A model generated the notes under the pieces. It searched no databases. It was not told where the DNA came from and saw only the letters and a program-made list of their open reading frames with translations. 64,000 nucleotides of DNA from a bacterium (GTDB lineage Bacteria > Hydrothermota > DG-26 > JAUXAN01): assembly GCA_030619885.1 (NCBI GenBank), contig JAUXAN010000006.1:1-64000 (forward strand), read 5' to 3'. Within the stretch, counting starts at the first letter, position 1. The number at the start of each line of letters is the position of its first letter. The translations under genes and the position numbers were made by a program. Of the stretch, positions 9,020-43,917 are shown piece after piece.

Positions 9020-10927
9020 TTATTTGAGCAGAATTAGCTTCTTCGTTAGATTTGCCTTCTCTGTCTGGAGTCGGTAGAAATAGATTCCAGAAGGAACTTT
9101 CTTACCAAATTTATCTCTTCCATCCCATACAACTTCGGTAATCGGTGATCGGTTATCAGTTATCGATAATTTGCGGACCAATCTACCACTCGCATCATAG
9201 ATCTTTAGCACTGCGTGGCTTGGTTCGGACAACGAATAACGAATAACGGTGGACGCATGGAACGGATTGGGGAAATTCTGTAGAAGAGAGGTCGCTTTTG
9301 GTATGAATTTCGCATATGGCTCCTCTTCGACATTCACTAATGAGACAACAAATTTTACCGTTTCAAAGTAGAGGTTCTCGTCAGGGTCATGGGAAGCAAT
9401 TTGGAGACTATCGTAATAGGTTCCATCTGATAATCCTGCTGCCATTACCTTTACTACAACAGATTGAGAATCTCCTGCTGTTGTGACAAATGAGGTTGGA
9501 TTTATAGAAATAATCCATGACTGTGTCTTCGTTATATTAGTTACATTCAGTGCGCCGTTGCCAACATTCTTCACCCACATAGTGGCGGCATCGATCATGG
9601 CTGCTTCACAGTATAATTCAAGTGTATCAGGTTCTACAACGATATCAGGGATATCTGTTTCGGATATTGTGAGGTTCACATATATCTTGGGTCCGCCATC
9701 AGGAATATTCTTTGGTGTCTCGGTTGAACTGTTAGACGCACCCCATCCAAAATGGTGTGCATATAGATGTTCTACAGTGCCAGTATCACTATCTAATGCT
9801 GTATCTTCACATTGCATAAAGATGTTGGTTCCTGCTGGGTCGAACCATGACTCACCATCTGAAATATCGAACACTATATTGTGTCCAGCGAATGGGTAGT
9901 CTGCTTGCACAGGCATGTACCAGTCAAAGAAAGATTTTGTCCAATCAGGCGTCAGGGTATCACCAATCCCCATCTGGATGGCAACCCGCTGGCGAGTTGG
10001 ATGTGTTATCTTCCATCTGGTCTCCACAACAGGTGAATATGCGATACGGTCGGTCGTGTAATACGCCCACTGATGTGAGAGGCGTGGATGCTGTACAGCT
10101 TCGTATGACATCCAGAAATAGCCAAAATGACCCCAGTCAGTACCCCATGAGTTGACCAATCTGAATGCACCAGTGCCGTCATGTGTAACTAGGGTATCAT
10201 TATATCCGACTATCGTGACAGCATGTCCACCCCTGATGTAGCCCCCTCCTGTATCAGCTACGCAGTACATAGTGTCGTAATTCACGATGCGATCGAAATT
10301 TGTACTCCACACATCTATCCCTAAAACCACGACATTACTATCAGAGATTAACGCCTTGAGAACTTCAATACCACTAGAGTCCCCAACCCAGAGAAAATAC
10401 GCTGAATCGGAACGGTATGGAATGGCATTGGAATAGGCTGCTTCAGTTGGCCATGAGGTTGAATCAGCATCATTATACGGAGAGTCTACGAGATTTGCAC
10501 AGCCGTGGTCAATGAGACACTTCGTTGCATCTGTGAAATAAGCCCCATCGTCTACACCACCATTTATCTGGTTGTAGATGAAGGCAGGACTGAACTGATG
10601 ATCAGTAGTGTCCACGTCCCATCTCCGTTCATACCATTCCTGAAAAGTCTTATGGTAATAGCCCACTGCCCAGGCAACACAGGAACCCTGGTATTGCTGG
10701 TCACCGACTGGTGGCATGAAAGGTGTGAGATCAACCGAAAGTTGTTTAACAGGTTTTGCCTTCACAGGACTTTTATGCATCCATGGTCTCTGAGAAGGGT
10801 CCTCTGGCAGACAGCCCACCGGGTGGAGTTCCTTCGCTAATCCATTCGAGAATAAAATAAAGACCCCAACGACAACCAGGGCTATCCATACACTCTTCAC
10901 ATCGGTTGATGGATTTGCTTTAGACAT
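9020..10927 (-). CDS. Secreted papain-family (C1A) cysteine protease with FlgD/type-A sorting C-terminus
   Basis: I start at ATG 10927 (AGGAGG six bases upstream), giving 635 aa instead of the track's 664. An N-terminal hydrophobic segment ('WIALVVVGVFILF') serves as signal or anchor. The C1A core has Cys83 in 'GSCVAWAVGYY', the His in 'GGHAVTIVGYND' and the Asn in 'VNSWGTDWG'. A beta-rich middle region resembles Ig-like repeats. The end ('LLQNFPNPFHASTVIRYSL...SGIYFYRL') is the FlgD-Ig/T9SS type-A-like domain, implying export to the cell surface or medium. The stretch encoding 'SITDNRSPITEV' reads as a run of ATAACTGATAACCGAT-type repeats, so a dispersed repeat appears to lie inside the coding sequence. 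Confidence 0.88.
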   Translation of the reverse strand: MSKANPSTDVKSVWIALVVVGVFILFSNGLAKELHPVGCLPEDPSQRPWMHKSPVKAKPVKQLSVDLTPFMPPVGDQQYQGSCVAWAVGYYHKTFQEWYERRWDVDTTDHQFSPAFIYNQINGGVDDGAYFTDATKCLIDHGCANLVDSPYNDADSTSWPTEAAYSNAIPYRSDSAYFLWVGDSSGIEVLKALISDSNVVVLGIDVWSTNFDRIVNYDTMYCVADTGGGYIRGGHAVTIVGYNDTLVTHDGTGAFRLVNSWGTDWGHFGYFWMSYEAVQHPRLSHQWAYYTTDRIAYSPVVETRWKITHPTRQRVAIQMGIGDTLTPDWTKSFFDWYMPVQADYPFAGHNIVFDISDGESWFDPAGTNIFMQCEDTALDSDTGTVEHLYAHHFGWGASNSSTETPKNIPDGGPKIYVNLTISETDIPDIVVEPDTLELYCEAAMIDAATMWVKNVGNGALNVTNITKTQSWIISINPTSFVTTAGDSQSVVVKVMAAGLSDGTYYDSLQIASHDPDENLYFETVKFVVSLVNVEEEPYAKFIPKATSLLQNFPNPFHASTVIRYSLSEPSHAVLKIYDASGRLVRKLSITDNRSPITEVVWDGRDKFGKKVPSGIYFYRLQTEKANLTKKLILLK

Positions 10928-11308
10928 AGATACCTCCTTTTTAAAACACACGGAATACAACGGATTTCGACACAGATAAACACAGGAAAATAGTGATAAC
11001 CGAAGATCCCGCATTCAGTTATTTTTTGCTGCCTACTTTTCCTTTTGGGCAACCACGGCTCGACTGAGCTCGCCGAAGTCAAGGGTTTGCCCTTACTGCT
11101 CTCTTTTTCCACCCCCTTCTAAAATTAGTTATTAGTCATTAGAGCCCTTATTATATACAGAACGCTACAGAAAGTTTAATATTTATATTTTAAGGTTTTT
11201 GAATTCCTTGTCAAGGAAAAAAAGAAAAACCGCAGAGGTGCAGAGAACACAGAGAGAAGAAAAATCATAAGAGGAGAATGTATAGGTTCCTATACAATCA
11301 AGGGAAGA
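10928..11308. other. Intergenic region with promoter and repeat words, no gene
   Basis: On the minus strand TTGACA (11224-11219) with TAAAAT after 16 bases is a plausible promoter for the protease, leaving a leader of over 250 bases. The region also holds 'CTCGACTGAGCTCGCCGAAG' (similar to an insertion in the 23S gene) and 'CCGCAGAGGTGCAGAGAACA' (family C). I see no ORF of interest. Confidence 0.5.
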
Positions 11309-19265: not shown

Positions 19266-19955
19266 CTATTTATCTACCTTTTTAGATTTTGCGATGTATC
19301 TTTTCAATTTGGCATCAGTATCTCTCATCCTTCTTGAAAGGATTGTCGCAATGTTTTTTATGACTACGGCTTCTATGTGCGGACTCACCTTGACCATAGA
19401 ATTGAAATCAGATTTTTTGAGCACTACGACGTCCGAACGGTGAACACACTTTATCGTTGCCGAACGGGGAGCTCTATCAATGAATGCCAATTCACCAAAA
19501 ACTTCCTTCGGTTTGAGGGTATGAATGGATGCTGGTTCTTTTATTCCTCTCATCTTTATTAAAACATCTGCTTTTCCATCCAGCACTGCATACAACTCAT
19601 CTGCCTTATCTCCCTGAGAGAAGATGACCTCGTCTTTTTTGTAATATTCTTTCCTACAGCAAGTTGCAAGAAGTTCAAATTCTTCTTTTTTGAGACCTTT
19701 TAAAATAGGGATACCTTCGAGTTCTTGCACGGTTACGACCTTCCTTGCCTCCTCTGCTTGGATCTCCATCGCTTCTTGAATCTGTTTTTTTGTGACCAGT
19801 TTCTCTTCAAGTAGCACCTCTCCCAATTTCCTCCAGCGCCCCCACTCTAACATCTCTGCTGAACGCTGCCTCTCCAGCGCCAGATTGAGTCCTTCAACAC
19901 CAATAATACCCCTATCTACTAATATCTCACCTAATAAACGTTTTCTGAAAAGCAT
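19266..19955 (-). CDS. Cyclic-nucleotide-binding protein with N-terminal MshEN/T2SSE_N-like repeats
   Basis: The 229-aa protein starts with two short repeats ('LLGEILVDRGIIGVEGLNLAL', 'LGEVLLEEKLVTKKQIQEAM') that resemble the N-terminal module of GspE/MshE ATPases, a fold able to bind c-di-GMP in MshE. A CRP-type cNMP-binding domain follows at about 75-210. Its phosphate-binding cassette reads 'FGELAFIDRAPRSATI', with the Glu and Arg that contact cyclic nucleotide in the family. No DNA-binding domain follows, so it is probably a sensor or adaptor. AAGGAGG precedes the ATG. It is a possible receiver for a nucleotide made by the cyclase-like pair at 33.6-38.7 kb; that link is inference. Confidence 0.82.
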   Translation of the reverse strand: MLFRKRLLGEILVDRGIIGVEGLNLALERQRSAEMLEWGRWRKLGEVLLEEKLVTKKQIQEAMEIQAEEARKVVTVQELEGIPILKGLKKEEFELLATCCRKEYYKKDEVIFSQGDKADELYAVLDGKADVLIKMRGIKEPASIHTLKPKEVFGELAFIDRAPRSATIKCVHRSDVVVLKKSDFNSMVKVSPHIEAVVIKNIATILSRRMRDTDAKLKRYIAKSKKVDK

Positions 19956-28376: not shown

Positions 28377-29951
28377 ATGATTGTCTGTACCTCAGAACAG
28401 ATGCGCAATATAGACAGAAGGACTATTGTAGATTTCGGTGTTCCTGGTTGTGTGCTTATGGAAAATGCTGGAAGGTCCGTTGTAACCGTTATTAAAACTC
28501 GTTTTAAAAACCTTAAAAACTTGAAAGTCGTCATAGTAACTGGAAAAGGTAATAATGGAGGGGATGGGTTTGTGGTGGCAAGATGGCTCAGAAATTTAGG
28601 AACATCACCAGAATGTTTTATCCTCGGAAAAGAAGAAGAACTTAAAGGAGACGCAAAACTGAATTTCGAAATCATAAAGAGGACAGAAGAGTGTATAATT
28701 GAAATCGAAGATGGGAAACTTGAACTCTTATCTGAAAGTGTAAGGAATGCAGACCTCGTCGTGGATGCAATCTTTGGGACTGGATTTAAAGGGAGACCAG
28801 AAGGGATTGTTTCTAAAGTTATTGAGATAGTTAACAGAGCCAGAAGAATTTTATCCATAGACTGCCCTTCTGGATTGGATGTTACAAACGGTAGTGTAGA
28901 AGGAGTGTGTGTTAAAGCGGACATTACGGTCTCTATGTGTCTGCCTAAATTAGGATTATTTTTCTATCCAGGCAAAAAATTCGTCGGCGAGCTGTGGGTA
29001 GTTGATATAGGTGCACCAAAAGAGGCAATAGAAAAGGAGAATATTAGAAACTGGGTGCTCGATGTGGATGAAATTGCAAATGCAATCCCCCAAAGGCAAG
29101 AAGATGGGCATAAGGGAGATTTTGGGTACTGTGTTGTGGTAGCAGGTTCTGTTGGGATGACCGGTGCTGCCGCCTTGACTTCGACTTCTGTATTGAAATC
29201 AGGGGCAGGACTCGTCACTCTATGCCTACCAGAGAGTATGAATAGCGCGATGGAGTCGAAACTGACAGAGGTGATGACCTACCCACTACCAGAGACTAAA
29301 GAGAAGACTATATCGAAGAATGCGCTAAAATCACTCAGGAGTTTTCTTAAAAAAGCCGATGTAGTTACCATAGGACCTGGTATCTCTACCAATATAGAGA
29401 CCAGAGATTTTGTAAGAAAATTGATAAAGATAGATCTTCCATTGGTGATCGATGCCGATGGATTGAACTGTATCAAATTAGAACATTTGAAAAAGAGACT
29501 GAATCAAACCATAATAACGCCCCATCCTGGCGAACTATCTGAATTGACGGGTATGAGTATTGAGAAGATAGAAAAAGGGAGGGTTGAAATTGCAAGAGAT
29601 GTAGCGACAGAGTACAAAACCGTGGTGGCACTCAAGGGCGCCCCAACAGTGATTGCTGCTCATAACGGCGATATTTTTATCAATCCTACTGGCAATTCAG
29701 GTCTGGCAACCGCTGGTTCGGGTGATGTGCTCACAGGCATCATCTCATCGTTCCTTGCTCAAGGAGCAAGTCCTGTAGACGCAGCAAAGATAGGCGTATA
29801 CCTCCATGGAGTCGCTGGGGACCTTGCCGCAAAGGAGAAGACAGAATATGGAATGATGGCACAGGATATAGTTGATAAAATCCCATCTGCAGTCAAAAGA
29901 GTTTTGATGAGAAAAATTGAGGGGCGCATATTCAGAACTACGAGTGAATGA
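28377..29951 (+). CDS. nnr: Bifunctional NAD(P)HX epimerase/dehydratase
   Basis: Nnr repairs hydrated NAD(P)H. The 524 aa fuse an N-terminal YjeF epimerase domain ('VTGKGNNGGDGFVVARWL', 'DAIFGTGFKGRP', 'DCPSGLDVTNG') with a C-terminal ribokinase-like dehydratase domain ('KGAPTVIAAHNGDIFINPTG', 'ATAGSGDVLTGIISSFLAQG'). The start is four bases after the sigma gene, with no clear Shine-Dalgarno. The stop overlaps the beta-propeller gene by four bases. Confidence 0.94.
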   Translation: MIVCTSEQMRNIDRRTIVDFGVPGCVLMENAGRSVVTVIKTRFKNLKNLKVVIVTGKGNNGGDGFVVARWLRNLGTSPECFILGKEEELKGDAKLNFEIIKRTEECIIEIEDGKLELLSESVRNADLVVDAIFGTGFKGRPEGIVSKVIEIVNRARRILSIDCPSGLDVTNGSVEGVCVKADITVSMCLPKLGLFFYPGKKFVGELWVVDIGAPKEAIEKENIRNWVLDVDEIANAIPQRQEDGHKGDFGYCVVVAGSVGMTGAAALTSTSVLKSGAGLVTLCLPESMNSAMESKLTEVMTYPLPETKEKTISKNALKSLRSFLKKADVVTIGPGISTNIETRDFVRKLIKIDLPLVIDADGLNCIKLEHLKKRLNQTIITPHPGELSELTGMSIEKIEKGRVEIARDVATEYKTVVALKGAPTVIAAHNGDIFINPTGNSGLATAGSGDVLTGIISSFLAQGASPVDAAKIGVYLHGVAGDLAAKEKTEYGMMAQDIVDKIPSAVKRVLMRKIEGRIFRTTSE

Positions 29952-31345
29952 TAAATATAATTTTTTTTCTACCTCTCCTCCTGCCTTTCAAACCTTCTAT
30001 CGTGAGGGAAGGGGATATCGTGAGTTATACAGAGCAGAAGTATATTACTTCCATCTGTATTGATTTGAGATATGTATACATCGGCACAAAAGGCGGGGTT
30101 GCGAGGTATGACAAGTTAAAAGATGAGTGGATATCGCCTCTGACAGATATATGGGGGTTATCTGACAACTTCGTAACCGATTGCAGAGTTGTCAGGGATG
30201 AAGTATGGTTTTTGACCCCGAAAGGTATCTCAAAATATAATCAGGGAATACAGAGATGGACAACGAGCAGCAATACAACCGACTTTCCTACAAAAGATAC
30301 TAATTTAAATCTTGATGACCCAAAATACTCATTTCTGGTGCCTTTCTATTTTCAGGACGAAAAATTTAGAAGATATGAAATAACCGCTCTTGCAGAAGAA
30401 GACAGGAACTTATGGGTAGGGAGTTCAGGATACGGTCTTTTCGTATACAATCTATTAACATGGAACTATACGCATTATCTCTTTGGACTTGCTAAAAATC
30501 CAGTTAACTATGTATATAAAGATGGTAATATACTCTGGATTGGAGGGATAGGTAGAGACGGTGAATCTGATGGGATTACACGGTGGGATAGAAAAAAGTG
30601 TGAATCTAAATTTTATGAGATGCCTCATACTTTAGGAATATTATCCAATGATGTATATACAATAGAAGCCAATCAGGATTTTGTATGGTTTGGGACAAAA
30701 GAAGGGCTGTGTCAGTATGATAAAAAGAGAGACCGTTTTGATACCTACACCATCTTCGATGGTCTGCCTGGTAGGGCTGTTCTATCTTTAGAACTGTATG
30801 GGGACAAACTTTTCTGCGGAACCGATTTCGGACTGTCATATCTCGATTTGAATAATAAGAAAATAAAACGAATTAAACCAGTTGGTGAGAGTATAAATGA
30901 TATAACTACTATAAAAGACAGAATATACTATGCAACACCAAAGGGTGTCTTCTATTTTCAAAGAGGAAAGTTTGAACTTCTCGAAGACCCATTCAGTTCG
31001 CTTGCTGTGGGCACAAACTGTATAACTGGTGATGAAAATACGGTATGGTTCGGCACAAGGGTTGGAGTTATATTCTATTGTGAAAAGACTGGTGAATGGA
31101 AACAGTATCTTGCCCCCACCTATTTCAGTAATGGGAATGTGCAAGACATTGCACTTGATGAGCACAATCTATGGCTTGCCACACCTGTATCGTTGGTGAA
31201 ATACAACAGAGAAAAAAATATCTGGAGAGAATATGACCCCGATTTTAAAGTAAATTCGATTTTAATAGAAGGTGACTATCTTTGGCTCGGAACGCCTCGC
31301 GGACTTGTAAGGTTTTACTGGAACAACCCATTCCTTCCTAAGTAA
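29948..31345 (+). CDS. Exported beta-propeller (two-component-regulator-propeller-like) protein
   Basis: A 465-aa protein with a short hydrophobic N-terminal signal ('INIIFFLPLLLPF'). Repeated blades carry the pattern W-x-G-[ST]-x-x-G-[LV]-x-x-[YF], for example 'YIGTKGGVARYD', 'LWVGSSGYGLFVYN', 'VWFGTKEGLCQYD', 'VWFGTRVGVIFY' and 'LWLGTPRGLVRFY'. These match Reg_prop propeller repeats, which form the periplasmic sensor part of hybrid kinases and also occur in free-standing surface proteins. No kinase or membrane segment follows, so it is likely a periplasmic or lipid-side binding protein. It is coupled to nnr by an ATGA overlap. Confidence 0.75.
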   Translation: MINIIFFLPLLLPFKPSIVREGDIVSYTEQKYITSICIDLRYVYIGTKGGVARYDKLKDEWISPLTDIWGLSDNFVTDCRVVRDEVWFLTPKGISKYNQGIQRWTTSSNTTDFPTKDTNLNLDDPKYSFLVPFYFQDEKFRRYEITALAEEDRNLWVGSSGYGLFVYNLLTWNYTHYLFGLAKNPVNYVYKDGNILWIGGIGRDGESDGITRWDRKKCESKFYEMPHTLGILSNDVYTIEANQDFVWFGTKEGLCQYDKKRDRFDTYTIFDGLPGRAVLSLELYGDKLFCGTDFGLSYLDLNNKKIKRIKPVGESINDITTIKDRIYYATPKGVFYFQRGKFELLEDPFSSLAVGTNCITGDENTVWFGTRVGVIFYCEKTGEWKQYLAPTYFSNGNVQDIALDEHNLWLATPVSLVKYNREKNIWREYDPDFKVNSILIEGDYLWLGTPRGLVRFYWNNPFLPK

Positions 31346-33555: not shown

Positions 33556-33584
33556 TTGACTAAAATCCTTTTAAAATATATTAT
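33556..33584 (+). promoter_or_regulatory. Leaderless promoter of the cyclase-like gene pair
   Basis: TTTTTTTC-TTGACT (33556-33561), a 17-base spacer and TATTAT (33579-33584), with eight bases to ATG 33593. No Shine-Dalgarno is present, so transcription probably starts one or two bases before the ATG. Confidence 0.75.
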
Positions 33585-33592
33585 ATATAAAC

Positions 33593-36199
33593 ATGGCTTC
33601 CACAATGGAAATAGAAAGGTCTGCTGAAGAAAAGAACAGGTATTTGCAAGAGATGAGAAACCTTTATTCAAAGGAAGAGTTTTACAATGGATGTGTAACT
33701 GAAATCGTAAATTTTTTAAAAGAGAAAAATCTGCCCCGTGAATCAATAAATGAGTTATTAAAAAATGATGGTATAATATATGTACAGATAGATAAATCCC
33801 TCAGGGACATGGTTCATAAATTGGTGCTATATCTATTGACAGCCATTCAAAAAGGCAAAGAGAATATAGATCTGTCATCTTATAAAAATGATTTAATCGA
33901 GATTTTTTCAAAATTCCTTGATAAGAAAAAAGACGCTGCTCTGATCTGTGACATAGCATTGAGAAACCTTCTCGTAGAAGAAGTAGGTGAATGTCTGAAA
34001 AGAACCTTGATGAGTGATGTCGAAAGAAAAGAACTGCTCAAGGTTTTTTCAACTGTTATAAATAATTTCCAGACGAGTATGAGACTTCGGTTGGCAAAAA
34101 AATATAAATTTGATGTCTTCTTGGCTGCCGAGACACTTTCGATGGCTCCTTTATATCCTGGTTCTCTATCAGATATATCCATTCACGATCTGGAACAATA
34201 TATCGTTGAAGCAGGTCTTTCCCTCAATCTCTTTGAGAATGTCCATAACTTACTTCACCACCTTGTCCAAAATCGCATTGAAGAAAATTTACTCGAAGAG
34301 ATAAAAAGAAAAAATTTGACCTCAAAGGCTGAAATCCCTAAAATTATAAATCTTCCTGTTCCGTTTATATCCTCTGAAACTTTGAAAATTTTAAAAGAGA
34401 CAATAAGAAAGAAATCTAAAGATTCAATGACTACTCTGACAGAAAATCTCCATAGAGTAGAGAGTGAAATTGAGCAGAAAAAAAATAACCTGGATAGCAT
34501 CTTATCAAGTCAATTCCTCAAGATTAAAGATGCGTTCTCTGTAAGCGATAATTCCCTTTCTATGGAAAGACAGTTCGATTATGCAAGAAGAAATATTACA
34601 AAACTCGGATCTGCTTTGAGGAATTTACAGAGAGAAAGAAATGTTCATGAGACAAAGTTGAAGAACTTGCGTAGTCTCTCCGACATCTCAGAGGCCGGGA
34701 TAGAGGGACTTCTCACTAAGACAAGAACCTCCAGATTGGAAGATTATCTACTTGTCTTTTCGTTACTTCAGCAAACCTTTGGCAAAAAACTCACAGACTT
34801 ACCTTCCGATGTTCTCGCCTCTTTTGACTCATTGATTAAAGATGAGATATTAAGACTCGAAGCAAATTTGAAAGAAAAGTTTGATAAGATTAGAGATAGA
34901 GAACTTGCCCAGATTAAAGGATTGATAAGAGAGAAAAGATTTTTCAAAAAAACTTACGACTCAGAAGGATTGAAAAATAGATATATTAAAATATTTGAAA
35001 ATGTCATAGCCCCTTCAGTAGTCACAAAAAGGCTTGAAGCACTCGTTCGTATCTGGCCACCAATGGTTGCTGATTTGAGTAATAAAGGCTCCCTGCTCGA
35101 TGAGGCAAGATATATAGGTGAAGAACTGGAGTTCAATGACAGACTATACCATCTCGATCTAAAAGATAATGAAGAATTTAATATAGAAGAACCTTCTGAA
35201 GAATTACGACGTTGTATCGTTGATAACTTCACCGAGCTCGTATCCGTCTTGATCTACGATATAAGGGGCTCAAGTTTTATGGGAAACAAGTTGAAAGATG
35301 CTTCTGTGGAGAGTGAAATAAGAAATAAATTTAACATAAAAATGTTGGATGTAGCAAGTGACTATGGTGCCTTTGCTTTGAAAGATACAGGAGACGGAGG
35401 AATAATATTTTTCTCCGCAAATTCTAATGACCTGTTCAATAACTGTTTCGATTTTGACGATAGCTCTCACTTGAGAGTAGGTAAGACTGCGAAAGAAAGT
35501 GTATTGGTACCATCTGCGGATGCTGCTAAAAGAGCGATTGGTTGTGCCTGTGATATGGTTAAAATGGCTGAACATTTCGTCCATGAAAATCTTAAAGAGT
35601 ATGCCAGGTGGTTCAAAGAAGAGAAAGACCGCAAACTCATATATGCTGGTGTCACTTATGCGGAACTCCCTCCTGAATATAAGAAGATATTCCAAATAGG
35701 AGTTGGAATTTCAAGTGGCAAACCACATAGAGATGTATACTTTGATATAAATTCTTATGGTGAATTCGATCTGACGGGCAATCTCGTTAGAGAAGCGAAT
35801 TTCTATTCGAGGGCAAAGGATCCGCAACATTCTGTTATACTATGCGACAGCGCAACTTTATTGAACTTCCTTTTGAATATAGAAAAATTTGAACCCGAAG
35901 AAGAAGAGACAGGAACTTTTTCTGAATTGGCAACCGATCGTCTCGACGAGATGTTGCGAAGTGAGGTTAAAAAATTTGCCGTTTTGAAAAAAGAGAAGAA
36001 GGGCTATAAATTTAAAACTATGGGCGTTTATATAGAGAAAATCGGCTTAGCGATTGTTTATGATAAAAAGAGATACGAACCACTTACTCTTCAACTTGAA
36101 AATCCTAATGTAAAGATTACAGACTCGGGTGAATTTATAGTTGAAAAGATCGGTCAGGTCAAATTTCTCTATGAAGTATTACCAGAAGGAGTAAGGTGA
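33593..36199 (+). CDS. Large helical protein with divergent class III nucleotidyl-cyclase-like C-terminal domain (paralogue 1)
   Basis: An 868-aa protein. Residues 1 to about 540 are predicted almost wholly helical, with coiled-coil stretches near 270-360 and 440-480. The C-terminal part resembles a class III adenylate/guanylate cyclase homology domain. 'LIYDIRGSSFMGNKL' holds the first metal Asp (D556) and 'LKDTGDGGIIFF' the second (D601); the spacing of 45 matches known cyclases (about 44). 'IGVGISSGK...GEFDLTGNLVREAN' corresponds to the conserved end, but Arg stands where the transition-state Asn is expected. An insert of about 80 residues separates these parts. No membrane segment is seen. 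The start is leaderless. The stop overlaps the second paralogue by one base. Confidence 0.65.
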   Translation: MASTMEIERSAEEKNRYLQEMRNLYSKEEFYNGCVTEIVNFLKEKNLPRESINELLKNDGIIYVQIDKSLRDMVHKLVLYLLTAIQKGKENIDLSSYKNDLIEIFSKFLDKKKDAALICDIALRNLLVEEVGECLKRTLMSDVERKELLKVFSTVINNFQTSMRLRLAKKYKFDVFLAAETLSMAPLYPGSLSDISIHDLEQYIVEAGLSLNLFENVHNLLHHLVQNRIEENLLEEIKRKNLTSKAEIPKIINLPVPFISSETLKILKETIRKKSKDSMTTLTENLHRVESEIEQKKNNLDSILSSQFLKIKDAFSVSDNSLSMERQFDYARRNITKLGSALRNLQRERNVHETKLKNLRSLSDISEAGIEGLLTKTRTSRLEDYLLVFSLLQQTFGKKLTDLPSDVLASFDSLIKDEILRLEANLKEKFDKIRDRELAQIKGLIREKRFFKKTYDSEGLKNRYIKIFENVIAPSVVTKRLEALVRIWPPMVADLSNKGSLLDEARYIGEELEFNDRLYHLDLKDNEEFNIEEPSEELRRCIVDNFTELVSVLIYDIRGSSFMGNKLKDASVESEIRNKFNIKMLDVASDYGAFALKDTGDGGIIFFSANSNDLFNNCFDFDDSSHLRVGKTAKESVLVPSADAAKRAIGCACDMVKMAEHFVHENLKEYARWFKEEKDRKLIYAGVTYAELPPEYKKIFQIGVGISSGKPHRDVYFDINSYGEFDLTGNLVREANFYSRAKDPQHSVILCDSATLLNFLLNIEKFEPEEEETGTFSELATDRLDEMLRSEVKKFAVLKKEKKGYKFKTMGVYIEKIGLAIVYDKKRYEPLTLQLENPNVKITDSGEFIVEKIGQVKFLYEVLPEGVR

Positions 36200-38739
36200 T
36201 GGAGGTTACCCAATCTAATCTCGAAACTTTGTATGAATCCCAGAGTAAATATTATCAAAGACTCAGGGATGTATTCGGGGCGAAAGAAGTTTATAATCAC
36301 AACTTAAAGCTACTCCTCGAACTTTTAAAAAAAGAGAATATTCCTGCCGATTCTATGGGTATCTTTATGCTCCACAAACGCTATGGGCGGATATATATTG
36401 AGTTTGCTAAGACTTGTTGTAGGACTTTAAACGAAGCTATCACAACTTTCAAAAATCATATAAGAAAAGGAGATGGGAAAAAGTTCAAAAACGGTGAACT
36501 CAAGACGACATTGACCAAATTATATGAAAATACTATCAAGGCCGATCCATCATTGAACCTCGTATTAGAAATCGGCATTAGAAAATTCCTCCTGCCTCAT
36601 CTTATTCAAGAAGATAAGAAGACAAGGAGAATCTTTCATTCTGCGTTTAGAACTTTATTGGAGGATATTAGGGGTGGATTGAAAAGTAAATATAAACTTC
36701 ACCTCTCTCTATGCGAACTCATGCAAAAGGCTCCAATCAAAGAGTTCTCTGGTCTCGCTGAATTTAAAGATGAGGCATTAGAGCACTCTGTGCCCGGGTC
36801 TCTACTCGAAGCCATTCATAACCTACTGAAAACGACCTTTTTAAAAAAAACAGAAGAATTACATCCGAGTGAAATAAGGGTCACTTCGTTAAAAGATCTT
36901 TCTGAAATCCGTATTGCAGGTGATTCCTATAAACAGGTCTATAAACACGCAAGGCGCCAATTTGAGACGCTCCTTTTTTCGTATAAAAAGGAGTTGAAAG
37001 AGATTGAAATAGTAGACAATAAAGTAAAAAAGGAGACGAGAAGTATTTTCAATGAAAAGATAAATGAATTACAATCTTTCACAAAAAAGAAATTGAGTGC
37101 TAAAGAATTGAAGAACATAACTGAAAGAACAGGGGAAATATTGAAGGAAATTCAAAGGACACTATACTCACATCTATGGCATATTAGTGAATGCGAACGA
37201 AAGAGAAGTGAAGTGTCGGAAGAAATTGAAAAAATAAAAAAGATAAGAAACCCCGAAGACCTGCATGAACTTATCAAGAGGGAAGAGAAAGATGATATAG
37301 TAAATCGTATCTTGGAATATTACACTCTGAGGTCTGTTGCATCAGACAAGTTGCCTAACAAACTGAAAAAAGAGTTGGCGAGGATGCTTTATGAAAAAGA
37401 AAAAGAGATGAGGAAAACAAAAACAGCAGGAAATGATAAAGAATTGGAAATTCTGCAAAGGTTAAGAGTGAAGAGCGGGTATGATGTGGATTTGTTAATA
37501 AATAACTATTTCCATCTGTTTGAAGAAGTGATCAAACCTTCGATATTTATGAAGAAGTTATCGGAAATGGTCAAAATATGGATGCCTGAAGCAGATAAAT
37601 CTCTCGCCCCTTACCGTGAGAAAGAACTTTGTGATGTAGCAAACTTTATAGGAGGCGATTTAATTCCAAATCAACTGTTTTATAGATTCTCATTCGAGGG
37701 GAATATTAAACCAAAATTGAACATAATGGTTAAAGAAAGGGAGAAAATAGAGGATATGCTGCGGAAAATGAATTTAAAGACCATAACTGTCTTTACCTAC
37801 GACATAAGAGGTTCTACATTTATGGGGAGTAAACTTCAAAATGCAGCAAAGGAGAGGATGATAAAGAATAAATTCAATCAGGAAATGGCAAAGATTGCAA
37901 AAAGGTATGGTTCTTTTTTGGTCAAGGATACAGGTGATGGAGGCATTATCTTCTTTGCAGAGAATTCGAAAGAACTGTATAATATAACCTACAAAGAAGT
38001 TCATACATCGGATGGAATAAAGTTAAGATATTCTTTTACGCCCGGGACAAAAATCTCTCTATCACCATCAACAACGAGTGGGCTGAAGGCACTGTTGTGC
38101 GCATCCGAGATGGTTAAAGGAGCGAAAAAATTTGTCAAGGACAACTTCATCTATTACAGAGACTGGTTCAAAGAGGCAAAAGAGATGGAACTTCTTCACG
38201 AAGGGGTAACATACGCACTCCTGCCTCCGGAGTTCAAGAGCCTATTTCGGATCGGTATTGGTGTCACCTCAGGTCGTTTGAACAGAGATATCATTTTTGG
38301 ATTAAATGCTTTTGGAGACCCTGATTTGATAGGACCGTTAGCCAATGAAGCAAGTCTTCTTTCAGGTGGAAGAGACCCTATGAGATCAACTATACTGACC
38401 GATGGCAACACGGTATTCAATCTGATTTTGAATGCAAAAAGATTTAATATATCCTTTGAGGAAAAGGAGAATATTGAAAAAGATATCAGAAAGATTTTAA
38501 ATAAAAAGATAACGGAAACAGCCCAGTCGAAAAATCAGGAGAGAACATATATATTCGATGGACTTGGATTCAAGGTAAGAAGAATAGGGAGGTACAACTT
38601 GATTGAAGAAGATAAAAGAAATGCTCCTATTTTTGATTGCGCTGATTTTGATTTTAATATTGATGAAGAAGGGGAATTCTATGATTCCAATAACATACCA
38701 TTTAAATTTATATACGAAGTGGAACCTTTAAAATTATAG
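36199..38739 (+). CDS. Large helical protein with divergent class III nucleotidyl-cyclase-like C-terminal domain (paralogue 2)
   Basis: The 846-aa partner of the preceding gene, with the same architecture and clear local similarity ('YDIRGSTFMGSKL', 'VKDTGDGGIIFF', 'GVTYALLPPEFKSLFRIGIGV'). Metal-site aspartates are D535 and D580, again 45 apart. In the conserved end 'DLIGPLANEASLL' the transition-state Asn is kept (N716), but the Arg four residues later is Leu. Both proteins end with a matching C-terminal block ('GEF...KF(L/I)YEV'). ATG 36199 overlaps the upstream stop (TGATG) with AAGGAG seven bases before it; GTG 36196 is the alternative. Strict coupling suggests 1:1 synthesis and perhaps a heterodimer; function is inference. 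Confidence 0.65.
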   Translation: MEVTQSNLETLYESQSKYYQRLRDVFGAKEVYNHNLKLLLELLKKENIPADSMGIFMLHKRYGRIYIEFAKTCCRTLNEAITTFKNHIRKGDGKKFKNGELKTTLTKLYENTIKADPSLNLVLEIGIRKFLLPHLIQEDKKTRRIFHSAFRTLLEDIRGGLKSKYKLHLSLCELMQKAPIKEFSGLAEFKDEALEHSVPGSLLEAIHNLLKTTFLKKTEELHPSEIRVTSLKDLSEIRIAGDSYKQVYKHARRQFETLLFSYKKELKEIEIVDNKVKKETRSIFNEKINELQSFTKKKLSAKELKNITERTGEILKEIQRTLYSHLWHISECERKRSEVSEEIEKIKKIRNPEDLHELIKREEKDDIVNRILEYYTLRSVASDKLPNKLKKELARMLYEKEKEMRKTKTAGNDKELEILQRLRVKSGYDVDLLINNYFHLFEEVIKPSIFMKKLSEMVKIWMPEADKSLAPYREKELCDVANFIGGDLIPNQLFYRFSFEGNIKPKLNIMVKEREKIEDMLRKMNLKTITVFTYDIRGSTFMGSKLQNAAKERMIKNKFNQEMAKIAKRYGSFLVKDTGDGGIIFFAENSKELYNITYKEVHTSDGIKLRYSFTPGTKISLSPSTTSGLKALLCASEMVKGAKKFVKDNFIYYRDWFKEAKEMELLHEGVTYALLPPEFKSLFRIGIGVTSGRLNRDIIFGLNAFGDPDLIGPLANEASLLSGGRDPMRSTILTDGNTVFNLILNAKRFNISFEEKENIEKDIRKILNKKITETAQSKNQERTYIFDGLGFKVRRIGRYNLIEEDKRNAPIFDCADFDFNIDEEGEFYDSNNIPFKFIYEVEPLKL

Positions 38740-38792: not shown

Positions 38793-38822
38793 TTGACAAA
38801 AAGTTTAAATTCATTATATTAT
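38793..38822 (+). promoter_or_regulatory. 23S rRNA promoter
   Basis: TTTTTTTA-CTTGACA with TTGACA at 38793-38798, followed by TATATT (38815-38820, 16-base spacer) or TATTAT (38817-38822, 18-base spacer). It lies about 66 bases before the mature 23S 5' end, directly after the cyclase-like genes. Confidence 0.7.
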
Positions 38823-38887: not shown

Positions 38888-41982
<3,095 letters not shown>

Positions 41983-42304
41983 TTTCATCAGTCCCCTTTT
42001 ATTATTTAGAATCCCCCCTTGACAACCATTTTGATTTTCCTATATTTATCTATAATGAAAGTATAGACACGAATGTTCATTCACCCCGCACTTACCTGCC
42101 CGCCGCTTTGCTTTGGCAGGCGGGTGCATAAGTGCGGGGCGGGTTGGACAAATTGCACGAATTTCTTTTATTCTTCTGTGATTTAGACAGTACGGATCCT
42201 GAGATGGTAATCAGTGTCTGAATCTCATTCGATTAACCTGTCCCGTTAGATGCTTGCTATCTAACGGGGTTCGTGTGATTCGTGGTTGTTTTTTCTTAAC
42301 TGAT
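41983..42304 (+). other. Intergenic region after 23S: promoter, nested hairpin and R1 repeat; no 5S rRNA
   Basis: The 3' strand of the 23S processing stem comes first (to about 41998). A promoter follows: TTGACA 42019-42024, 16 bases, TATATT 42041-42046. Next is a family B hairpin with arms CCCCGCACTTA/TAAGTGCGGGG (42084-42139) that holds a second GC-rich palindrome in its loop. An R1 copy spans 42180-42226, and an inverted 'CCCGTTAGAT...ATCTAACGGG' lies near 42241-42268. These fill the leader of the gene at 42305. I searched for 5S-like sequence and saw none. Confidence 0.65.
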
Positions 42305-43177
42305 ATGATTTTGCATAGGATCAGAACCTTTTTTCTGAAAAAAAAGGAGAGGAAAAAGGAAGTTTTCTTTGGAGAAAGTATAGTAGATGGACTGTTTAAG
42401 ATAGTAAAAGACCTGCCAACTCTAACCGTCGACACTGATTTTTTGAAAGTCCTTTCAACTACCATCGAACCCATCCGCAAGAGAAAGGTAGACAATATGG
42501 TAAATAGATGGAGAAGCAGAAAAGAGAAGGAAGGATTCAAATTTGAAGATGAGGGTGCTGATGTTCTGATTACATATTACAACGAGTGCAAAAGAACACT
42601 ATCACCGGTCTACAATGTCCACCTCAAGGATAAGAATATGGAAGCATCTTTGAGGTGCAATAGCCTTTCGGAATTTAAAAGAAAAATATCGAAGATAAAG
42701 GGAGGGAATGTCTACTCTATAGAATTTGAGTTCACTGCCGATGACTTCTATTTAAGAATAAATATGAAAGATAGTTTGATCTTCACTCCATCAATAGTTG
42801 CTGGCGGGAAAAACAGGAAGGAAATCTTGAATATATCACAAAAGATTTATGATGGTCTTACCCCTTTTTATAATTTAAACTTCCTTTTCACGAATTTTTT
42901 CTCCTTCTTTGCAATTCCTTTTGCATTTGTCATGCCAGTTTTAGCAATCATATTTGATCACATAAGAGGAATTTCTCTTGGCACTGGGGTGATAATTGCA
43001 TTGGCGGTCAATCTTCCTGTTTTCATATTTACAACTTACATTATAAGAAAGGGTTTTCCTGTCGTTGAGTTTAGACTATTTGAAAGAAAAGAAAATATCT
43101 CTCTTTACAGAAGGCTCCTCGGTGGTATTGCAGTTTTTGTAGCCTTTCTAACTATATTTAATTTCATCCTCTTCTAA
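42305..43177 (+). CDS. Membrane protein with N-terminal soluble domain, unknown function
   Basis: I start at ATG 42305; the track's extra 17 residues are encoded by intergenic repeats. The product is about 290 aa. The first 185 residues are soluble and basic, with a predicted alpha/beta domain ('KIKGGNVYSIEFEFTADDFY'). Three hydrophobic segments close it: 'NFFSFFAIPFAFVMPVLAII', 'GVIIALAVNLPVFIFTTYI' and 'GGIAVFVAFLTIFNFILF'. I do not recognise the family. The stop overlaps the next ATG by one base (TAATG), so it is coupled to a beta-barrel-like gene, which suggests an envelope role. There is no clear Shine-Dalgarno. Confidence 0.65.
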   Translation: MILHRIRTFFLKKKERKKEVFFGESIVDGLFKIVKDLPTLTVDTDFLKVLSTTIEPIRKRKVDNMVNRWRSRKEKEGFKFEDEGADVLITYYNECKRTLSPVYNVHLKDKNMEASLRCNSLSEFKRKISKIKGGNVYSIEFEFTADDFYLRINMKDSLIFTPSIVAGGKNRKEILNISQKIYDGLTPFYNLNFLFTNFFSFFAIPFAFVMPVLAIIFDHIRGISLGTGVIIALAVNLPVFIFTTYIIRKGFPVVEFRLFERKENISLYRRLLGGIAVFVAFLTIFNFILF

Positions 43178-43917
43178 TGAACCACCATATTCTGTGTGTT
43201 ATTTTGCTCTTTATCTCATTCGGGACTCAACTTCACTGTTCATTTGAATCCTTGCATCCAGAAAACCCTGCTCGATTTTCAGAAATTACTAACTTTGAAA
43301 TTTCGAGTTCTTTTTTACAACTTTACGGGCTTGAAGAACTTACTCTCTCTTCCATAGACTATATGCAAAAATTCAGATTCGTATGTCTGGGTTTTGGGGT
43401 CACATCTTTTGGCTATAACAAATACCGTGAGAATACATTCGCAGTTTCCTTTACCACAAGGTCTGAAGATATTGATTTGGGATTGAATTTAAAAATTTTG
43501 AGGCTGGAAATTCCTGAACATATTAAGGATACAGGATTCGGATTCGACATAGGGGTTCTGTTTGAACCTGCAGATAGACTGAAACTTGGTTTCGTTACAT
43601 ATAACATCAACAGACCTAAAATCGGATTCGACTACCTATCCAGGGCCATCTTTTCTTATACATCCTTCTGTGTCAATGAGGACCTTACTCTAAATTTAGA
43701 GATATACAAAGAGATCCAATTTCCATTAGAAGTTAAACTGTATGAAACGATGGGAATAAACAGAATACTTACCCAGAGTCTGGGTATAAGGTTGTCCCCA
43801 TCAACTTTCTATTTTGGTCTTGGGTTCAGACAGGGGTCTTTGATATTCTGTTATGACGGAGAATTCCATTCTGTTTTGGGCGTTACGCATATTTTTTCTC
43901 TGGTATACAAAAAATAG
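43177..43917 (+). CDS. Probable outer-membrane beta-barrel protein (PorV/UPF0164-like)
   Basis: A 246-aa exported protein with a signal peptide ('ILCVILLFISFGTQLHC'; the Cys could be a lipobox, less likely). The rest is made of short alternating strands ('FAVSFTTRSEDIDLGLNLKI', 'LKLGFVTYNINRP', 'FYFGLGFRQGSLIFCYDGEF') and glycine turns. The layout, from 'ENPARFSEITNF' near the N-terminus to 'FSLVYKK' at the end, recalls PorV/UPF0164-type barrels of the FCB group, but it is shorter than usual. It is coupled to the preceding membrane-protein gene. Confidence 0.6.
   Translation: MNHHILCVILLFISFGTQLHCSFESLHPENPARFSEITNFEISSSFLQLYGLEELTLSSIDYMQKFRFVCLGFGVTSFGYNKYRENTFAVSFTTRSEDIDLGLNLKILRLEIPEHIKDTGFGFDIGVLFEPADRLKLGFVTYNINRPKIGFDYLSRAIFSYTSFCVNEDLTLNLEIYKEIQFPLEVKLYETMGINRILTQSLGIRLSPSTFYFGLGFRQGSLIFCYDGEFHSVLGVTHIFSLVYKK

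Follow-up and report, generated by a model that had tools for sequence, protein, structure and literature searches.

A two-paralogue family of class III cyclase-like proteins without the transition-state arginine, and its GGDEF partner, in WOR-3 bacteria

Introduction

Class III adenylyl cyclases, among them CyaB of P. aeruginosa (3r5g), CyaC (1wc1) and the mammalian C1/C2 pair (1azs), form their active site at a dimer interface. In the mammalian enzyme, loss of the transition-state Asn or Arg strongly lowers turnover but does not abolish substrate binding. The fold is a known one, and changes in the transition-state residues have been described in other cyclase-like families as well: the DUF2652 proteins, which are uncharacterised and class III-like, are about 250 residues long on average and keep the metal aspartates with an altered transition-state pair, the mycobacterial ones having Lys-Glu and a retained Arg (PMC4886424). 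The Pycsar cyclases (PycC) are divergent class III cyclases as well. Among GGDEF enzymes, the Hypr enzymes accept ATP and GTP alike; a Ser at position 348 of GacA is their signature difference, and natural enzymes with Ser or Thr at that position have exclusively GGDE[F/Y] (eLife, PMC6456294).

Here we describe two adjoining genes, A and B, found in a 64,000-nucleotide stretch of DNA (the window) from an uncultured WOR-3 bacterium. Their products share with class III adenylyl cyclases the fold, the strand order, the D-x44-D spacing, the Lys before the GD motif and the Asp seven residues before the Asn column, and their active site is likewise expected at a dimer interface. Unlike these cyclases, no member of the family has the transition-state Arg, clade A has also lost the Asn, about 50-70 residues are inserted between strands 3 and 4, the N-terminus is a unique helical region of 400-530 residues, and A and B score below the curated cut-off of Pfam PF00211 (Guanylate_cyc). 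The kept metal aspartates and the altered transition-state pair are features in common with DUF2652, which is absent from the Pfam matches listed for members of the A/B family. Like the Pycsar cyclases, A and B are divergent class III proteins, but they differ from them by their chromosomal housekeeping contexts and by an adenine-type Lys/Asp pair. A PycC model was matched weakly by 6 of 40 family members (best E 1.5e-4); as these matches were weak and no effector was recognised nearby (the neighbours being pyr, ribosomal and GGDEF genes), we rejected a role in Pycsar defence.

By keeping the metal and the presumed adenine contacts while the transition-state Arg is missing throughout, this natural family provides a clean test of what such residues are for, and it bears on how cyclases become sensors or other synthases. 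Its pairing with a GGDEF enzyme without guanine selectivity joins two signalling systems, class III and GGDEF, that are usually separate. The host phylum is nearly uncultured (a cultured WOR-3 isolate is strain sy37, PMC12285271), and the module leads us to expect cyclic dinucleotide signals with adenine in a group in which such signalling has not been studied so far. The A/B family, its two-paralogue structure and its Hypr-like GGDEF link appear to be new: we did not find them in the open-access literature, and the open-access WOR-3 papers that we found do not treat cyclases.

Results

Two overlapping paralogous genes

The original prediction of two coupled paralogues was borne out: both ORFs are intact (Table 1) and their products are 32% identical end to end. 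Gene B has an alternative in-frame start, ATG 36199, which would yield a protein of 846 residues. The promoter-like site in front of A came from a consensus scan that returned no more sites than in shuffled sequence; given its distance from the ATG, the mRNA of gene A could be leaderless. Downstream of B we found a 23S rRNA gene and not a GGDEF gene. As no match to 16S or 5S rRNA was obtained within the 64 kb window, the rRNA genes are unlinked. The 23S rRNA gene has a promoter-like site of its own in the consensus scan (38793-38820) and is followed on the plus strand by two adjoining ORFs of 307 and 246 residues (42254-43917) without Pfam match.

Table 1. Position of the features of the A-B locus in the window
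Feature	Position	Strand	Description
Promoter-like site TTGACT-17-TATTAT	33556..33584	+	Ends 9 nt before the ATG of A; consensus scan alone
Gene A	33593..36199	+	868 aa, intact ORF; about 530 helical residues and a divergent class III cyclase domain
Cyclase-like domain of A	35210..36196	+	AlphaFold2 secondary structure, Foldseek
Gene B	36196..38739	+	Intact ORF, 847 aa from GTG 36196; overlaps the stop codon of A
Cyclase-like domain of B	37738..38736	+	AlphaFold2 model, Foldseek, hhalign
23S rRNA gene	38888-41983		Complete, alone, after B

Fold of the two halves

A class III cyclase-like region had been predicted at the C-terminus of both proteins, and structure prediction returned this fold for each. 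The AlphaFold2 models had a mean pLDDT of 83.9 (A) and 84.5 (B), and the 50 matches listed by Foldseek against the PDB were class III cyclases in all 50 cases, for A as well as for B. The best match among those listed was CyaB (3r5g), with an E-value of about 1e-6, a probability of 1.00 and a target-normalised TM of about 0.69; the query-normalised TM is low because the cyclase domain makes up one third of the chain, and the large rmsd is probably due to the insertion between strands 3 and 4. In the model of A, the C-terminal part comprises strand 549-557, helices 560-590, strands 594-598 and 602-607, helix 644-665, strand 702-709, hairpin 715-728, helix 730-739, strand 748-752, helix 753-762 and C-terminal strands, an order of elements that, as modelled, is the class III cyclase topology. 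At the sequence level, a search with the family profile placed CyaB first (E 1e-4), and hhalign of this profile against the canonical cyclases of the same genomes gave a probability of 97.2 and an E-value of 4.6e-11. We also considered a GGDEF fold and rejected it, since there was no PF00990 match and the best folds found by Foldseek were class III. The helical N-terminal part (about 500 residues) had been described as belonging to no recognisable family; consistent with this, no Pfam family matched it above cut-off in A or B, and the PDB yielded weak matches to coiled-coil or designed helical structures only.

Active-site residues

In the AlphaFold2 model of A, the metal aspartates D556 and D601 lie at the end of strand 549-557 and between strands 594-598 and 602-607, respectively; strand 725-728 contains D726, and helix 730-739 contains R733. 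The metal aspartates of B are D536 and D581 when counted from the GTG start (D535 and D580 from the ATG). Their spacing of 45 residues compares with 44 in a canonical cyclase of the same genome, in line with the canonical spacing originally claimed. To follow these positions through the family, we used 82 sequences (35 A-type, 47 B-type or single-copy) from which duplicates and two fragments had been removed. Both metal aspartates, Lys597 and Asp726 (A numbering) were invariant in 82/82 non-redundant relatives; the corresponding residues are D556, K597, D601 and D726 in A and D536, K577, D581 and D710 in B. Lys597 and Asp726 align with what we take to be the adenine-reading Lys and Asp of class IIIa adenylyl cyclases. 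In the same alignment, the canonical cyclases of these genomes mostly have Thr at the position of this Asp.

In A, the transition-state Asn is replaced by Arg733 and the Arg by Phe737, while B retains the Asn and has Leu instead of the Arg. The predicted breakage of the pair, complementary in the two proteins, recurs in the relatives: the Arg column contained Arg in none of the 82 sequences; in the Asn column, each of the 35 A proteins had Arg, and the 47 others had Asn (22), Ala (12), or else Ser, Asp or Gly. Recurrence in 82 non-redundant relatives puts this pattern far above chance. The register at the Asn/Arg end, originally given as less secure, was reproduced by the family alignment, by the alignment with canonical cyclases from the same genomes and by hhalign of the two profiles. 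These canonical cyclases keep both Asn and Arg in the alignment, except for one degenerate domain of a tandem pair, indicating that the loss in A and B is not part of a general drift of the cyclases in these lineages. From the behaviour of the mammalian enzyme upon loss of these residues, we read A and B as proteins that would bind their nucleotide but cyclise it poorly or not at all.

Distribution of the family and pairing of A with B

A protein search of 60 relatives found the family in 26 genomes, usually with two copies each. When 84,980 species genomes were scanned with a profile, by means of degenerate peptide patterns that more distant relatives elsewhere could escape, we obtained 59 loci, essentially all in WOR-3/Stahlbacteria/Hydrothermus, TA06, UBP2 and Edwardsbacteria MAGs. 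The few loci labelled Cloacimonadota or Acetofilamentum include at least some contigs of GTDB relatives of the window. These loci were obtained with the family alignment as query; the scan of species genomes with A alone returned nothing.

B was the next gene after 18 of the 32 A genes not situated at a contig edge, and the overlap was 4 nt in each of these 18 tandems, window included, confirming the tight coupling of the two genes. In non-tandem families, A was found behind rplQ and before valS, and B behind pyrR-pyrB-pyrC. The original prediction had raised the question whether the pair always co-occurs. It does not, as some genomes carry only A or only B. The suggestion of a heterodimer is plausible. 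The Asn column was non-Asn in just two B clades (Ala/Ser, Asp/Gly), both in lineages that also have an A protein, while all single-copy B types kept the Asn. This pattern, made up of two independent events, is plausibly explained by hetero-oligomers in A-containing lineages. A heteromer would not be universal, since single-copy B-type or A-type genomes occur.

The GGDEF partner

In 34 of 46 informative loci, a GGDEF gene directly followed B (or whichever gene ends the A-B tandem) on the same strand, with a gap of -61 to +7 nt; this conserved neighbour of B in the relatives is outside the 64 kb window. The context upstream of B-GGDEF varied (pyrC, mltG/YceG, pilB/pilT-like genes and others), so that the B-GGDEF link is the conserved part. 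Since the partners were REC-GAF-GGDEF or GAF-GAF-GGDEF proteins, or consisted of an N-terminus of about 150 residues of no family followed by GGDEF, the link is not with one fixed sensory domain.

We compared 35 partners, i.e. the 34 encoded behind B and a single A-linked case. All 35 contained RYGGDE[YF], in most cases with GGDEY, and none had the guanine-selecting Asp, which was replaced by Ser (23), Gly (11) or Ala (1). By contrast, this Asp was kept in 31/31 other GGDEF domains of the phylum, a control set that leans canonical because it consists mostly of top-scoring PF00990 matches. The sole exception in the control set was the partner orthologue that the genome of the window encodes at an unlinked site; the other five GGDEF domains of this genome in the set all retained the Asp. 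The 23 partners with Ser at the position of GacA Ser348 resemble this Hypr enzyme (PMC6456294) in also having GGDE[F/Y]. The 35 partners as a group differ from it by the 12 with Gly or Ala, by an Asp at the Asn position in 18/35, and by their association with a cyclase-like pair, which is not known for GacA.

A close orthologue of the partner was present in 15 of the 26 genomes with the family versus 1 of the 34 without it (Fisher p 1.8e-6, with no correction for phylogeny). The genome of the window has this orthologue as an unlinked GAF-GAF-GGDEY protein (G000:C22, L161:1549-3072); it has Cys/Gly at the base-selecting positions, and its gene adjoins EF-Tu and nusG-like ribosomal-operon genes. 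In the five genomes of family f11, B had neither an adjoining GGDEF gene nor a close partner orthologue.

Some further features of the loci were recorded. In tandem lineages (L071:12374-14045 and its equivalents in L072-L074, L076, L081, L089, L092, L094), A-B-GGDEF is followed by a gene for a CBS-domain protein and by one or two Na/H-exchanger genes, whose products are possible outputs. c-di-GMP-I (GEMM) riboswitches (L202-L208) occurred in 6 of the 60 relatives, all of which carry the cyclase-like family; one of them (L204) has A for G beside the CAAA motif and, judging from this substitution, could have an altered ligand preference. In Hydrothermus-like lineages (L065:6663-8747, L064, L067, L123), the gene of the single-copy relative comes immediately after a series of pilB/pilT-like ATPase genes, which suggests a link to type IV pili.

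Interpretation

The explanation that we favour, tentatively and with a confidence somewhat short of even, is that A and B form a class III pair which binds an adenine nucleotide, probably without cyclising it, and which regulates an adenine-using GGDEF enzyme. The fold, the conserved residues, the pairing of the genes and the altered GGDEF partner are established here; nucleotide binding, low or absent cyclase activity, the heteromer, the control of the partner and the partner's product are inferred. The two proteins would be subunits from a phylum-level family of divergent class III nucleotidyl cyclase homologues. Each C-terminal domain would still bind metal and an adenine nucleotide through the two Asp and the adenine-reading Lys/Asp, with little or no cyclase activity, ring-closing transition-state stabilisation having presumably been lost with the Arg in both proteins and also the Asn in A. 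The class III dimer interface of the A-B complex would take up the adenine nucleotide, the long helical region at the N-terminus would change its conformation in response, and this change would control the cognate GGDEF enzyme, encoded next door in most relatives and elsewhere in this genome. Because it lacks the guanine-selecting Asp, this enzyme probably makes an adenine-containing cyclic dinucleotide, e.g. cGAMP. The perfect retention of both metal aspartates counts against this explanation, since a non-catalytic sensor is not strictly in need of them. So do the B proteins of family f11 without GGDEF, the A-only and B-only genomes, the 23S rRNA gene after B at the present locus, the variable sensory domains of the partners, and the 12/35 partners with Gly or Ala instead of the Hypr Ser.

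The invariant metal aspartates and adenine-reading Lys/Asp would be readily understood if A-B were an active, though unusual, cyclase, a heterodimer with one or two working sites in which Arg733 of A, one helical turn away, substitutes for the absent Arg. The partner, through its GAF domain, or CRP-like proteins would then read the product, cAMP or another cNMP. The presence of this Arg, on helix 730-739, in each of the 35 A proteins, the obligate-looking coupling of the genes in 18 tandems, the GAF domains of many partners and the presence of cNMP-binding proteins in the genome all favour such an enzyme. We nevertheless hold it to be rather unlikely: B-only genomes have the Asn but the Arg in no partner, making the Arg733 device impossible there, canonical cyclases are already present in the same genome, and the partners of the Hydrothermus lineage have no GAF domain. 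Loss of the ring-closing residues with retention of metals and base recognition could also point to an intermolecular polymerase that, with the GGDEF enzyme, synthesises another product, e.g. a linear or cyclic adenine-containing di- or oligonucleotide. The residue pattern of the A/B family and its conserved neighbour, a palm-fold enzyme of relaxed base selectivity, are in keeping with this proposal, which we find very unlikely, as no effector gene is common to all loci. It is unlikely, too, that the module is a new second-messenger system in which a heteromeric A-B, an adenine-reading palm pair without ring-closing residues, and the GGDEF enzyme, a relaxed palm enzyme without guanine selectivity, jointly make or control an adenine-containing signal made by neither classic enzyme.

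Two other explanations dispense with synthesis by A and B. In one, the C-terminal domain is not an ATP sensor but a receptor for the partner's cyclic dinucleotide (or for AMP/ADP), with the helical region as output. This would account for co-transcription with the synthase, as suggested by gene order, for the retention of adenine-reading residues with loss of transition-state residues, and for the CBS-domain and Na/H-exchanger genes after the module in tandem lineages. To our knowledge, however, class III domains are not established as receptors of cyclic dinucleotides, and we judge this quite unlikely. In the other, the gene order reflects generic operon packing, and A and B are structural or housekeeping proteins unrelated to second messengers. 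A indeed often belongs to the rpsM-rpsK-rpsD-rpoA-rplQ operon, ahead of valS, and B often lies behind pyrR-pyrB-pyrC, but the B-GGDEF adjacency holds across unrelated upstream contexts and involves only the altered GGDEF subtype, which makes simple packing decidedly unlikely.

Other genes of the window and of the genome

The protein encoded at 19266-19955, originally put forward as a candidate partner of the pair, does contain a cNMP-binding domain. The same genome, however, encodes nine such domains, together with seven PF00211 matches, and on its contig C9 a canonical cyclase adjoins a cNMP-binding gene. There is thus no ground to single out the protein at 19.3 kb, and we rejected it as a dedicated partner. 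Elsewhere in the window we noted a papain-like protease with a Por-type secretion tail (9020-11014, minus strand) and a PorZ-like beta-propeller protein (29948-31345, plus strand), sequence features that hint at a type IX-like secretion system.
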